A stretch of DNA of 33,822 nt from Rhodobiaceae bacterium (GTDB taxonomy: Bacteria > Pseudomonadota > Alphaproteobacteria > Rhizobiales > Tepidamorphaceae): contig SKQW01000204.1 in assembly GCA_007118805.1 (NCBI GenBank), positions 1-33,822 of the forward strand, in the 5' to 3' direction. Shown piece after piece: positions 15,976 to 21,269 of the stretch. Within the stretch, counting starts at the first letter, position 1; every line of letters begins with the position of its first letter. The position numbers and the translations under genes are program-made. Below the pieces are notes generated by a model. That model did no database searches and was not told the origin of the DNA. It saw only the letters and a program-made list of their open reading frames with translations.

Positions 15976-16179
15976 GTCTCAAGCTCCGTCGAGCACGCCG
16001 GTGGCGGATCACGGGGAGGCACCGCGTAGCCGCACCAGGATAGTCAGGTCAATTGGCCAGCGCCGTGCGGGCCCGGATGGGGCCTATGCAGAATGTCCTC
16101 CCCTTGTCCCGTTGAATTGGTGGTAGAGGGCTATGTGACCCCGCCCCCATATCCCCCAGGCAAGGAACCGCTTCCCTCG

Positions 16180-16209
16180 CTTGACATATCTATCGGTAGA
16201 CACAAATAT
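16180..16209 (+). promoter_or_regulatory. Candidate promoter upstream of hspQ, possibly RpoH-type
   Basis: CTTGAC (16180-16185), 17-nt spacer, CAAATAT (16203-16209); about 65 nt upstream of the ATG. Confidence 0.4.
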
Positions 16210-16275
16210 TGCGCGCCGTCCGGGGGCGGACGCGTATCCTGTTACGCGCAGACGAGAGTTTGGATCAGTACATTG

Positions 16276-16605
16276 ATGAAGGCACGGAGCGCCAAATACG
16301 CGATCGGCCAGGTAGTCCGTCATCGCTTCTACTCCTTCCGGGGAGTGGTGTTTGACGTTGACCCGACCTTCGACAACACCGACGAATGGTGGCAGTCGAT
16401 TCCGGAGGAGGTCCGCCCGCACAAGGATCAGCCCTTCTATCACCTCTTCGCGGAGAATTCCGAAACGGAGTATATCGCCTACGTTTCGGAGCAGAATCTG
16501 CTGCCAGACGATACCGGAGACCCGGTGCGCCATCCACAGGTGGCGGAGATCTTCGAGGGGGTCGAAGGGGGCATCTACCGCTCGCGGGAAAAGCGCCTCA
16601 ACTGA
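16276..16605 (+). CDS. hspQ: Heat shock protein HspQ / hemimethylated-DNA-binding YccV-like
   Basis: KYAIGQVVRHRFYSFRGVVFDVDPTFDNTDEWWQSIP...DQPFYHLFAENSETEYIAYVSEQNLLPD matches the HspQ/YccV family; ORF track extends the start upstream to 16093. Confidence 0.92.
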   Translation: MKARSAKYAIGQVVRHRFYSFRGVVFDVDPTFDNTDEWWQSIPEEVRPHKDQPFYHLFAENSETEYIAYVSEQNLLPDDTGDPVRHPQVAEIFEGVEGGIYRSREKRLN

Positions 16606-16750: not shown

Positions 16751-17428
16751 CTATTCGGTGGGCGCCGCTTCGCCCCCTTGGCCCCCTTGCTCCTCCAGGA
16801 GGCGCTGACGCGCATCGGCGGCCCGCCGTTGCAGCTCATCCTGCAATTGCTGGCGCTGCTGGGCAAGTTGCTCGGTGTCGATGGGCGGTCCGTCATAGGC
16901 CTTGGTAAAGCCGATCAGGGTAAAGCCCAGCCCACGCTGCTCCCCCTCATGGTCGATCCAGTAGAGGACGAGATTATTGCCGGCTTTCAGCGCATCCACA
17001 TAGTCGCTATCGATCTGCATCTCGCCGTAGCAGGCCTGTGGCAGGCACTGCGTGTAGGTGGCCTGCTCGGGCTCGGCCTCGTCGATCTGAACCGCGAAGC
17101 CGGGCGGCAGGATCGAGCCGATAGGCAGCATGGCTCGCAGGATCTTCTGATCCTCCTCGACCAGCGTCCCGACCGTCACGGCGGCGATGAACTCGCCGGT
17201 ATCGGCCCGCGCCTCCTGGGTGACGAGGCAGACTTCCTGATCCTCCAGCGTCGGCTCTTCGACGCAGACCTTGACCCAGCTACCCAGGTCATCGCCCCCC
17301 TCGGCTTGGGAGGCTTCCTGAGCCTGCGCTTGCATGCCGAATCCCGCCATCGCGAAGGCGCCGGCCGCGAGGAAGACGGAAAGGCGGCGCTTTCTCAATG
17401 CCTGCGCGGAAATCTGTCGAAATTGCAT
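16751..17428 (-). CDS. Invasion-associated locus B (IalB) family protein
   Basis: Signal peptide then SWVKVCVEEP...QEVCLVTQEARADTGEFIAAVTV...LRAMLPIGSILPPGFAVQID...YTQCLPQACYGEMQID...LGFTLIGFTKAYDG; Gln-rich coiled-coil tail. Confidence 0.85.
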   Translation of the reverse strand: MQFRQISAQALRKRRLSVFLAAGAFAMAGFGMQAQAQEASQAEGGDDLGSWVKVCVEEPTLEDQEVCLVTQEARADTGEFIAAVTVGTLVEEDQKILRAMLPIGSILPPGFAVQIDEAEPEQATYTQCLPQACYGEMQIDSDYVDALKAGNNLVLYWIDHEGEQRGLGFTLIGFTKAYDGPPIDTEQLAQQRQQLQDELQRRAADARQRLLEEQGGQGGEAAPTE

Positions 17429-17605
17429 AGGTCGTCCCCAAATCCTGTGCCAGATATAGCCTGAATTCTCGGTTGGCAGGCGTCCCCCCGAGCCGTGCCC
17501 GCGCACGCTTGGTCACCGTGAATTGCGGCAACACAATGTCGCGCTGCCACCACCTCGACGGTTGCGCCCACCCTTCGTTACCTCCAAGCCCAGCCTTAAA
17601 TACTC

Positions 17606-17709
17606 CGCGATTGGAACGCAACATTTCCGGCATTTGGCCCGTCGCGTTCGCTAGCTCCAATCGCGTGACAACATAGCGAGATTGGCCCGCAACTTTCCCA
17701 TCGCGATGG
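17606..17709. repeat. Repeat/inverted-repeat cluster in the ialB-yejA-like divergent region
   Basis: CGCGATTGGA (17606-17615) and TCCAATCGCG (17656-17665) form a 10-bp perfect inverted repeat; GCGATTGGaaCGCAACaTTTCC (17607-17628) recurs as GCGAgaTTGGccCGCAACTTTCC (17676-17698); 12-bp palindrome CCATCGCGATGG (17698-17709). Confidence 0.75.
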
Positions 17710-17781
17710 CCTGCGCGGTCGCGAATGTAAATGATGCAGGCTAGAATGGCCGGAGACGAATCGGAGAGCCGTCGGCGGCAC

Positions 17782-19638
17782 ATGACAGGTTTCAGCCTCG
17801 CAACCCGGATCCGGCGCCCGTATCGGGCGCCGTTCATTGCCGTCCTTGCGAGCTTGTTGCTGATCTCGCCACAGGCCGTGGCGGCGGATCGGGGGGGTCC
17901 GGATCACGGCATCGCGATGCACGGCGAATTGCTCTATCCGCCGGAATTCGAGCATTTCTCCTATGCTGACCCCGATGCGCCCCAGGGTGGACGGCTGACC
18001 CGCGCCGTCTTGGGCAGCTTCGACAGCCTGAACCCGCTGGTAGTGCGCGGCGTGCCGGCGCGCGGCTTGCGTGAATATGTCTTCGAATCGCTCATGGCGC
18101 GCAGCTTCGACGAACCGTTTTCCCTCTACGGGCTGCTGGCTGAATCGGTCGAGGCGGCCGAAGATCGCAGTTGGGTCGCATTTACCCTCAATCCTGACGC
18201 CCAGTTCTCGGATGGTGAGCCGGTGACCGTCGAGGACGTCGTCTTTTCCTGGGACGTCCTGAGGACAAAGGGGCGCCCCAACCACCGCAACTACTATAAT
18301 CAGGTGAGCGAGGTCGAACAGGTCGGCGAGCGGACGATGCGCTTCACCTTCTCGGGCGAGCCGGACCGCGAGATGCCCCTGATCATGGGGCTGATGCCCA
18401 TCCTGCCATCGCACTACTACGATGCCGACACCTTCGAGCGCAGCGGGCAGACAATGCCGCTGGGCAGCGGACCCTATGTCGTCGATGACGTCTCCTACGG
18501 CTCGACCATCACCTACCGGCGCGATGAGGATTATTGGGGCAACGATTTGCCTGTCACCGCAGGGCATCACAATTTCGAAGAGATCCGCTTCGAGTACTAC
18601 CGGGACGCCAACACGATGTTCGAGGCGTTCCGGACCGGGGCCATCGATGTACGCCCGGAGGACGACCCGACGCGCTGGGCCACGGGTTACGACTTTCCCG
18701 CCGTGCGCAGCGGTGAAATCGTGCTGGATACGTTCGAGACTGGTGTCCCGCGCGGCATGTCGGCGCTGGTGTTCAATACCCGCCGCGCGATCTTTGCCGA
18801 TCGCCGCGTGCGCAATGCCCTGCTCCACCTCTTCGACGCCGATTGGATCAATCGCAATCTGTACTACGAAAACTACGAGCGCACGGTGAGCTATTTCGAG
18901 GGCTCAGAACTGTCGGCGCGCGGCCGTCCGGCAAGCCCGCGTGAGCTCGAAATCCTCGAGCCATGGCGCGACCGGATCGACGATGCGTTTCTCGACGGCA
19001 CCTATGAGCCGCCCGTCTCGGATGGCTCGGGCCGCGACCGGCGCAACATGCGCGCCGCGCTGGCCCTGCTGGCGGAGGCCGGTTGGCAGCTTGACGGCGG
19101 CAAACTGCACAATGTGGACACCGGAGAGCCCTTCACCTTCGAGATCCTGGTCGCCACGCGCGATCATGAGCGCCTGGCGTTGGCCTATTCGCAAAGCCTG
19201 GAACGGGCCGGCATTCAGGTCAGCGTCCGGCAGGTCGACTCGGCGCAGTTCGAGCGCCGCCGCCAGGTCTACGATTACGACATGATCCCCAATTTCTGGT
19301 TCGCCTCGCTGTCACCGGGCAACGAGCAGCGCTTCTATTGGGGCAGCGATGCGGCGGAGACCGAGGGGACCCGAAACTACATGGGCGTGGCCGATCCCGC
19401 CGTCGATGCGGCGATTGATGCGTTGCTTGCCGCGGAGGAACGCGAAACCTTCATTGACGCCGTCCGCGCCCTCGACCGGGCGCTGATGTCAGGCCTTTAT
19501 GTCGTGCCGCTGTTCCATTTGCCGGAGCAATGGGTGGCGCGTTGGGCGCATGTGGGTCGGCCCGAAGAGGACTCGCTCTACGGCTATGTGATCGAGAGTT
19601 GGTGGCGCGTGCCCGACGGCCAGGCCGCGCAGCAATAG
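17782..19638 (+). CDS. Family 5 extracellular solute-binding protein, YejA/YepA-like
   Basis: Signal peptide; HGIAMHGELLYPPEFEHFSYADPDAPQGGRLTRAVLGSFDSLNPLVVRG...; AQFSDGEPVTVEDVVFSWDVLR is the SBP_bac_5 motif; N-terminal region resembles YejA. Confidence 0.9.
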   Translation: MTGFSLATRIRRPYRAPFIAVLASLLLISPQAVAADRGGPDHGIAMHGELLYPPEFEHFSYADPDAPQGGRLTRAVLGSFDSLNPLVVRGVPARGLREYVFESLMARSFDEPFSLYGLLAESVEAAEDRSWVAFTLNPDAQFSDGEPVTVEDVVFSWDVLRTKGRPNHRNYYNQVSEVEQVGERTMRFTFSGEPDREMPLIMGLMPILPSHYYDADTFERSGQTMPLGSGPYVVDDVSYGSTITYRRDEDYWGNDLPVTAGHHNFEEIRFEYYRDANTMFEAFRTGAIDVRPEDDPTRWATGYDFPAVRSGEIVLDTFETGVPRGMSALVFNTRRAIFADRRVRNALLHLFDADWINRNLYYENYERTVSYFEGSELSARGRPASPRELEILEPWRDRIDDAFLDGTYEPPVSDGSGRDRRNMRAALALLAEAGWQLDGGKLHNVDTGEPFTFEILVATRDHERLALAYSQSLERAGIQVSVRQVDSAQFERRRQVYDYDMIPNFWFASLSPGNEQRFYWGSDAAETEGTRNYMGVADPAVDAAIDALLAAEERETFIDAVRALDRALMSGLYVVPLFHLPEQWVARWAHVGRPEEDSLYGYVIESWWRVPDGQAAQQ

Positions 19639-19649
19639 AAAGGGGCAAC

Positions 19650-21269
19650 GTGATCCTCGCCGACCCGACGGAGATCGCACACTACGCTCGCGACGGGCTG
19701 TGGGGCCGGGTAACTCTGGACGGTCTGCTCTCGCGCAACGCGGCGTCCCGGCCATTGGACCTCGCCCTTGACGATGTCTCGGCGCGCGCCCAGGCCGATA
19801 GCGGGCAGTCCGGGTTGACCTGGGGGGAGCTTGATGCCCGGGTCTCGCGGCTTGCGGTGTTTTTCGCCGAGTTGGGTCTGCGCCCCGACGAGTCGATCGG
19901 CATCCAGCTTGCCAACACGGCAGAGGCCGTCATCGCGCACCTCGCCGCCTTGCGCGCTGGCCTCATTCCCCTCGCCCTTCCCTGCCTCTGGCAACGGGCG
20001 GCCCTCACCGAAGCCGCGCAGCGCCTTGCCCCCGTTGCCCTGATAACCAGCAGCACCATTGGCCCAGCCCGGCAGGCCGATACCATGCGCGAAGTCGCTG
20101 CGGACAGCGTGTCCGTGCGCTTCGTCCTTGGTTTCGGTGAGGCGGTCCCGGATGGGGTCCACTCGCTCGACGAGGTCATGGCCATGCCGCTAACGACCGA
20201 GGGCGCGGCTGTCGAGCGCGAAGACAATCCCGCCGATCACGTTGCCATGGTGACCTTCGATACGGCCACGCGCGCGCCGGCGCCGGTCGCCCGCAGCCAT
20301 AACCAGTGGCTGGCGGCGGCGACCGCCTGCGTCGGCGCGGCACGCCTGGGACATCACGCCGCGCTTGCGACAACGATGATGCCCACAACGCTTGCCGGCT
20401 TGGCGACCGGCTTGGCGAGTTGGCTGCTCGCCGGCTGCCGCCTCGTCCTCGTGATGCCGGACCACATCGACGCAATTGACAGCAAGGAGGTTACGCATCT
20501 CGTCCTGCCGGGCCCGGCCGCGATGCACCTCAAGTCGCAAGGCCACGCGCCGCCGGTGAAGACGCTGCGCGTGTGGCGCGGCGGCGCTGCCTTGATTGCA
20601 ACGCCGGACCCAGAGGCCATCGACATCCTGTCGCTTGGCGAACTGGCGATCTGGTCCGGCAAGCGCGGTTTGACCATCCCTCTTGCCGGCGAGGACGTGG
20701 ACGAACCCCTGGCCGAACTCCTCAAGGCACGCATGCAGGGTTTGTCCCAGAAGGCGGCGGACTGCGACCAGCCGGGCGCCATGCTGCGGGGAACGCTCTC
20801 GGTCGCCGGGCCACAGCTTCCCGGTCGGCCGTTTCCGGGGGGCGACGACCAGGCCGATGGCGAAGAGAGCGCCGATCCGGACGGCTTCCGGCCGACCGGG
20901 CTACGCTGCAGCCTGACCGGCACCAGCCCGGCGGTGGTTCGCATCATCGGCTATGCCGGCGAGGTGTTCGCCCGCGGCGGCATTGCCGTGGCCGCCGAGG
21001 CGGTCGATGCGCTGTATGCTGACTGTCCGGGGGTTGCCGATGCGGCGGTGGTGCCGGTGCCGGACCCGCTGCTGGGCACGCGCTTTCACGCCGCCGTGGT
21101 CGAGCAGAGCGAAGGCGCCTGCACGCTCGAAGCCTTCCGGGCGCATCTGGCCGAGTTGGGCGCCGCGCCATATCTGCTCCCCGACGCCGTCATCAAGGTC
21201 GACAGCATTCCGCGCGGACAGAACGGGCGCACCTTGCGCAGCGTGCTCGAAACGCAGGCGGCCGCCTGA
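19650..21269 (+). CDS. Divergent class I adenylate-forming (AMP-binding/acyl-CoA synthetase-like) protein, possibly catalytically degenerate
   Basis: Overall ANL layout (LTWGELDARVSRLAVFFAELGLRPDESIGIQLANTAEAVIAHLAALRAGLIPLALP...; C-terminal GVADAAVVPVPDPLLGTRFHAAVV...IPRGQNGRTLRSVL), but P-loop and terminal Lys motifs are not canonical. GTG start at 19650, 11 nt after the upstream stop. Confidence 0.75.
   Translation: MILADPTEIAHYARDGLWGRVTLDGLLSRNAASRPLDLALDDVSARAQADSGQSGLTWGELDARVSRLAVFFAELGLRPDESIGIQLANTAEAVIAHLAALRAGLIPLALPCLWQRAALTEAAQRLAPVALITSSTIGPARQADTMREVAADSVSVRFVLGFGEAVPDGVHSLDEVMAMPLTTEGAAVEREDNPADHVAMVTFDTATRAPAPVARSHNQWLAAATACVGAARLGHHAALATTMMPTTLAGLATGLASWLLAGCRLVLVMPDHIDAIDSKEVTHLVLPGPAAMHLKSQGHAPPVKTLRVWRGGAALIATPDPEAIDILSLGELAIWSGKRGLTIPLAGEDVDEPLAELLKARMQGLSQKAADCDQPGAMLRGTLSVAGPQLPGRPFPGGDDQADGEESADPDGFRPTGLRCSLTGTSPAVVRIIGYAGEVFARGGIAVAAEAVDALYADCPGVADAAVVPVPDPLLGTRFHAAVVEQSEGACTLEAFRAHLAELGAAPYLLPDAVIKVDSIPRGQNGRTLRSVLETQAAA

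Follow-up and report, generated by a model that had tools for sequence, protein, structure and literature searches.

Within the window, the whole 33,822-nucleotide stretch of DNA that was analysed, a gene with an IalB domain and a YejA-like gene are transcribed divergently from a common 353-bp intergenic region, and the question that this locus raises is how that region serves the two genes. The preliminary description drew attention to three repeat arms lying between the genes and offered two readings of them, a multi-site operator shared by both genes or a leader RNA that alternates between two hairpins.

The divergent gene pair and its neighbourhood

The gene pair is probably rgsG–yepA, because the IalB domain, the YejA-like neighbour, and a DsbA-like gene match the neighbours reported for Agrobacterium. 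According to the accessible text of Gilmore and Cava (PMC9790009), Agrobacterium YepA is the muropeptide-binding partner of YejBEF and lies next to RgsG, which acts in polar growth, and to a protein of the DsbA type. Both of these neighbours of YepA, an RgsG-type IalB gene and a DsbA-like gene (Pfam DSBA, further to the right of the YejA-like gene), are found at the window locus. The window thus has the same neighbours as the rgsG–yepA–dsbA locus described in that text, but differs from it in that an AMP-binding, acyl-CoA-ligase-like ORF (19530–21269) separates yepA from the DsbA-like gene; scored with the named NCBIfam models, this ORF stays far short of every cut-off, its best score being 108 bits where 724 are required. 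The closest solved chain to the YejA-like protein is PDB 4ony (645 bits), with the chains named YejA at ca. 405 bits. The product of the IalB-domain gene, called ialB below, is probably RgsG, a periplasmic polar-growth protein. The RgsG of S. meliloti (SMc00950) has an IalB domain, and its gene proved refractory to knockout (PMC7327166). The window also carries hspQ, at 16093–16605, beyond ialB.

The divergent ialB/yepA order is kept across the bacterial order. One IalB query detected it in 55 of 70 loci, and further queries located IalB in five more, giving 60 loci with ialB and 10 without. That part of the preliminary description which saw here a regulatory region common to both genes is borne out by this order-wide arrangement, and the intergenic region is best regarded as shared promoter/operator DNA of the probable rgsG and the probable yepA. 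Separate transcriptional control of Agrobacterium yepA is raised as a possibility in the accessible text of PMC9790009, which describes no intergenic element for rgsG–yepA–dsbA; no paper on the regulation of rgsG and yepA was found. The features of the region are collected in Table 1.

Table 1. Genes, repeats, and regulatory candidates of the ialB–yepA region (positions in the window)
Feature	Position	Strand	Basis or remark
IalB-domain gene (PF06776), probable rgsG orthologue	16751..17428	-	Pfam 95.5 bits; divergent neighbour across the order
Order-wide conserved element AATTGCGGCAACACAATGTC	17521-17540		Consensus RAWTRMGGCRA-N5-RTGDC; outside the repeats first described
Arm 1 CGCGATTGGA	17606-17615; with flank, first direct-repeat copy, 17606..17629		Sequence; alignment with arm 3, P = 0.001
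Arm 2 TCCAATCGCG	17656-17665		Perfect 10-bp reverse complement of arm 1; P = 0.026
Arm 3, second direct-repeat copy	17676-17698		Putative counterpart of the relatives' promoter-like block
12-bp palindrome CCATCGCGATGG	17698-17709		Ordinary; one of 26 such in the window
CGCGATTGG-like half-sites	17606 (+), 17657 (-), 17677 (+, one mismatch), 17697 (-, one mismatch)
Candidate promoter towards ialB, GGGAAA (17699-17694) - N18 - TATGTT (17675-17670)	17670..17699	-	Inferred
YejA-like solute-binding protein gene, probable yepA	17782..19638	+	PF00496 232 bits

The repeats, their chance level, and two readings of them

All the strings first reported, i.e., CGCGATTGGA, TCCAATCGCG, GCGATTGGAACGCAACATTTCC against GCGAGATTGGCCCGCAACTTTCC (17676–17698), and CCATCGCGATGG, are present letter for letter at the positions given for them. 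They differ, however, in how far they exceed chance. When the intergenic region is shuffled with its dinucleotides preserved, 2.6% of the shuffles still contain an inverted repeat of 10 bp within 120 nt. As the 33.8-kb window harbours 26 inverted repeats of this kind, together with 26 twelve-base palindromes, the inverted arm 2 and the palindrome are unremarkable, at the level of chance, and constitute weak evidence. The direct repeat is above chance: the local alignment of 17591–17650 with 17651–17720 scores 16 (P = 0.001, 1000 shuffles, a statistic observed directly on the sequence), and its best ungapped 20-mer is identical in 16 of 20 positions (P = 0.006). The alignment extends beyond the arms, up to its right end, as a diverged duplication of ca. 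71 bp would leave it, and the direct repeat therefore looks like a diverged tandem duplication of that period. A genome-wide family of the direct repeat was considered and rejected, with only one further site at two or fewer mismatches in the host genome. The genus of the window consists of this one genome; covariation among close relatives is not possible to assess, and the recent history of the arms is unreadable.

The proposal that the yejA-like gene has a leader RNA switching between an arm 1:arm 2 and an arm 2:arm 3 hairpin did not survive the folds and the comparison with relatives. Arm 2 is able to pair with either of the other arms, as had been claimed, and each pairing is seen in a predicted fold (with arm 1 in that of 17590–17790, with arm 3 in that of 17597–17720), but the ability to form both hairpins follows from the letters alone, and the RNA switch is not supported. 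The plus strand of 17590–17790 folds at −68.8 kcal/mol against −67.4 for its shuffles (z −0.32), and that of 17597–17720 likewise equals its shuffles (z −0.17); the minus strand of the intergenic region gives z −1.16. Rfam 15 yields no match at the gathering score. In a MAFFT alignment with six family relatives the arm 1:arm 2 pairing is kept in none of the six, 0–4 of its 10 pairs being retained or the position gapped, and no exact inverted repeat of at least 9 bases occurs in them at the position of the arms. The inverted arms are thus not conserved in the family, where the relatives compared all belong to other genera, an outcome that the preliminary description itself had named as speaking against them. 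Furthermore, a plus-strand promoter upstream of 17597 is not known, and the block conserved in the relatives resembles a promoter of the opposite direction. A switch of this kind is highly improbable.

The same arms can be read on the DNA, as a species-specific multi-site operator of four CGCGATTGG-like half-sites whose regulator would act on both divergent genes. Four of the 16 half-site matches (at most one mismatch) in the 33.8 kb do fall within 100 bp, and between the divergent genes at that, but the half-site was picked after the repeats had been seen, and the duplication accounts for one extra copy and the palindrome for another. The exact CGCGATTGG-N25-55-CCAATCGCG arrangement occurs once in the host genome and in none of the seven other family genomes, and relatives do not retain the arms, so that an operator made of the arms is considered unlikely.

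A promoter-like block directed towards ialB

Two conserved features are discernible in the intergenic regions of the relatives, an element treated in the next section and a further block, whose plus strand reads ATAnCGCG..GATTTCCAGC / ATAnCGCG..CGATTTCCAGC, present in four of the six family relatives and in two more distant loci (family motif log-likelihood 93 versus 68–71 for shuffled sequences; pairwise P among relatives from 0 to 0.033). On the minus strand of the relatives, towards ialB, the block ends in CTGGAAA and TAT with N17 between them. As these ends keep their fixed spacing (L033, L034, L037, L038, L117, and L140) even where the middle differs, which is the case in L038, the block suggests a promoter for ialB.

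The two best matches to the block in the intergenic region of the window are arms 3 and 1, both on the ialB strand. Their scores are not above those of shuffles (P = 0.375), and L033 is the only relative whose alignment with this part of the window attains P < 0.05, being collinear with 17673–17778, arm 3 included (best local alignment, P = 0.04); for these two reasons the equivalence of arm 3 and the relatives' block is suggestive only. For −35 and −10 hexamers, which in a sigma-70-type promoter stand 16–18 nt apart, the spacing is 18 nt at arm 3 and 21 nt at arm 1, compared with 17 in the relatives, and a scan of 17400–17900 detected no sigma-70 consensus promoter. The best available reading, in which we have moderate confidence, is that arm 3 would be the ialB promoter and arm 1 its duplicate. 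A RegA/PrrA/RegR-type box and the sigma-54 and EcfG promoters presumably do not fit, owing to their spacing or hexamers. In four other loci (L040, L041, L050, and L054) a TTCTAGCA-like block, GCTAGAA on the minus strand, lies 17–20 nt from the conserved element and is possibly the −10 region of ialB there.

The conserved element and its candidate regulator

The conserved element lies ca. 60 bases to the left of the repeats and corresponds to the dominant motif of the relatives' intergenic regions, AAaTGCGGCgA.a.cGTG.C (log-likelihood 526 against 70–76 for shuffled sequences). It scores above 14 bits in 58 of the 60 loci with ialB beside yepA (above 17 bits in 54, between 14 and 17 in four) and is absent from all 10 loci without ialB, none of which exceeds 10.2 bits (shuffled maximum 10.5). 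The element goes with ialB, since the loci devoid of this gene are devoid of the element as well and eight of the ten (L042, L049, L052, L062, L118, L123, L127, and L138) have hspQ (YccV-like) close to yepA instead. Both the conservation and the co-occurrence are direct observations. Two loci, L125 and L145, have ialB beside yepA yet no element (scores −8.3 and 10.2).

With start codons chosen by a simple rule, the median distance of the element is 103 nt to the start of ialB and 154 nt to that of yepA. Its core is a direct repeat of the half-site GNC with a period of 11 bp (motif positions 6–8 and 17–19), and no common RNA structure was predicted for 44–49 sequences on either strand. At two or fewer mismatches it is essentially locus-specific, with 1–7 matches per family genome; a regulon was considered and rejected, nearly all the other matches inspected at this threshold overlapping ORFs, while a looser pattern gives many GC-rich matches that allow no interpretation. 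A coding origin of the element and the block was likewise dismissed, the frames meeting early stops in several relatives (in L041 right after ATGTCC). No description of the element was found in searchable papers.

The 11-bp period of the GNC direct repeat, together with the lack of an RNA-structure signal, indicates that the element is probably an operator for a response regulator of the OmpR type. A candidate is ChvI (of the ExoS/ChvI system; BvrR in Brucella), for which the accessible text of PMC9731502 quotes a 15-bp S. meliloti consensus, N-GCC-N8-GCC. With GHC-N8-GCC on its minus strand, the element comes close to this consensus; its first half varies among GTC, GCC, and GAC across the relatives, and in the window it is GAC (GAC-N8-GCC) where the S. 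meliloti consensus has GCC. The Caulobacter consensus TTGC-N3-GCAA is unmatched by the element. The information in six specified bases is small, and ChvI is consequently a lead rather than an identification; searchable papers do not name the ialB/yepA pair as its target. In Agrobacterium, the ExoS/ChvI system is activated by cell-wall stress, as stated in the accessible text of PMC9731437. The sites of CenR (TGA-N8-TGA in Rhodobacter, AgTCAC--C--cGTgAct in S. meliloti) resemble the element as OmpR-family repeat sites whose half-sites are separated by roughly one helical turn. The core of the element differs from them, consisting of GCGGC and RTGDC, and a conserved match to either CenR form is lacking.

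The element, as part of the 5′ leader of ialB, could also work at the level of RNA and not of DNA, for instance as the target of a small RNA. If ialB starts at the promoter-like block, which in several relatives is ca. 20 nt away, the element falls in this leader. Against this stand the lack of a consensus structure on either strand and the pattern of two GNC half-sites with an 11-bp period, which is what the DNA site of a regulator binding in tandem would show, and a function as RNA appears still less likely than an operator composed of the arms.

The explanation that we prefer, with a probability of about 0.58 for the whole of it, combines a duplicated promoter-like block with control exerted mainly through the separate DNA element. 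A lineage-specific tandem duplication (period ca. 71 bp) would have affected a promoter-like block that is single-copy in relatives, with arm 3 as the older copy and arm 1 as the one added. Control would operate on DNA, chiefly via the 20-bp element, to which a dimer of an OmpR-family response regulator would most likely bind near the transcription start of ialB; both the regulator and the direction of its effect are putative.

It follows that the repeats first noticed are of little importance, representing a duplication of local extent in a divergent promoter region of the ordinary kind, and that the element, which offers binding and mutation tests a well-defined target of 20 bp, is a better lead than they are. 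In Rhizobiales, both the recycling of the wall through YepA and the polar growth that depends on RgsG are important. Tentatively, and with less than even confidence, the element may be an undescribed order-wide operator tying the output of RgsG, possibly also that of YepA, to an envelope-stress response regulator, and would thereby couple growth of the pole to recycling of the wall.
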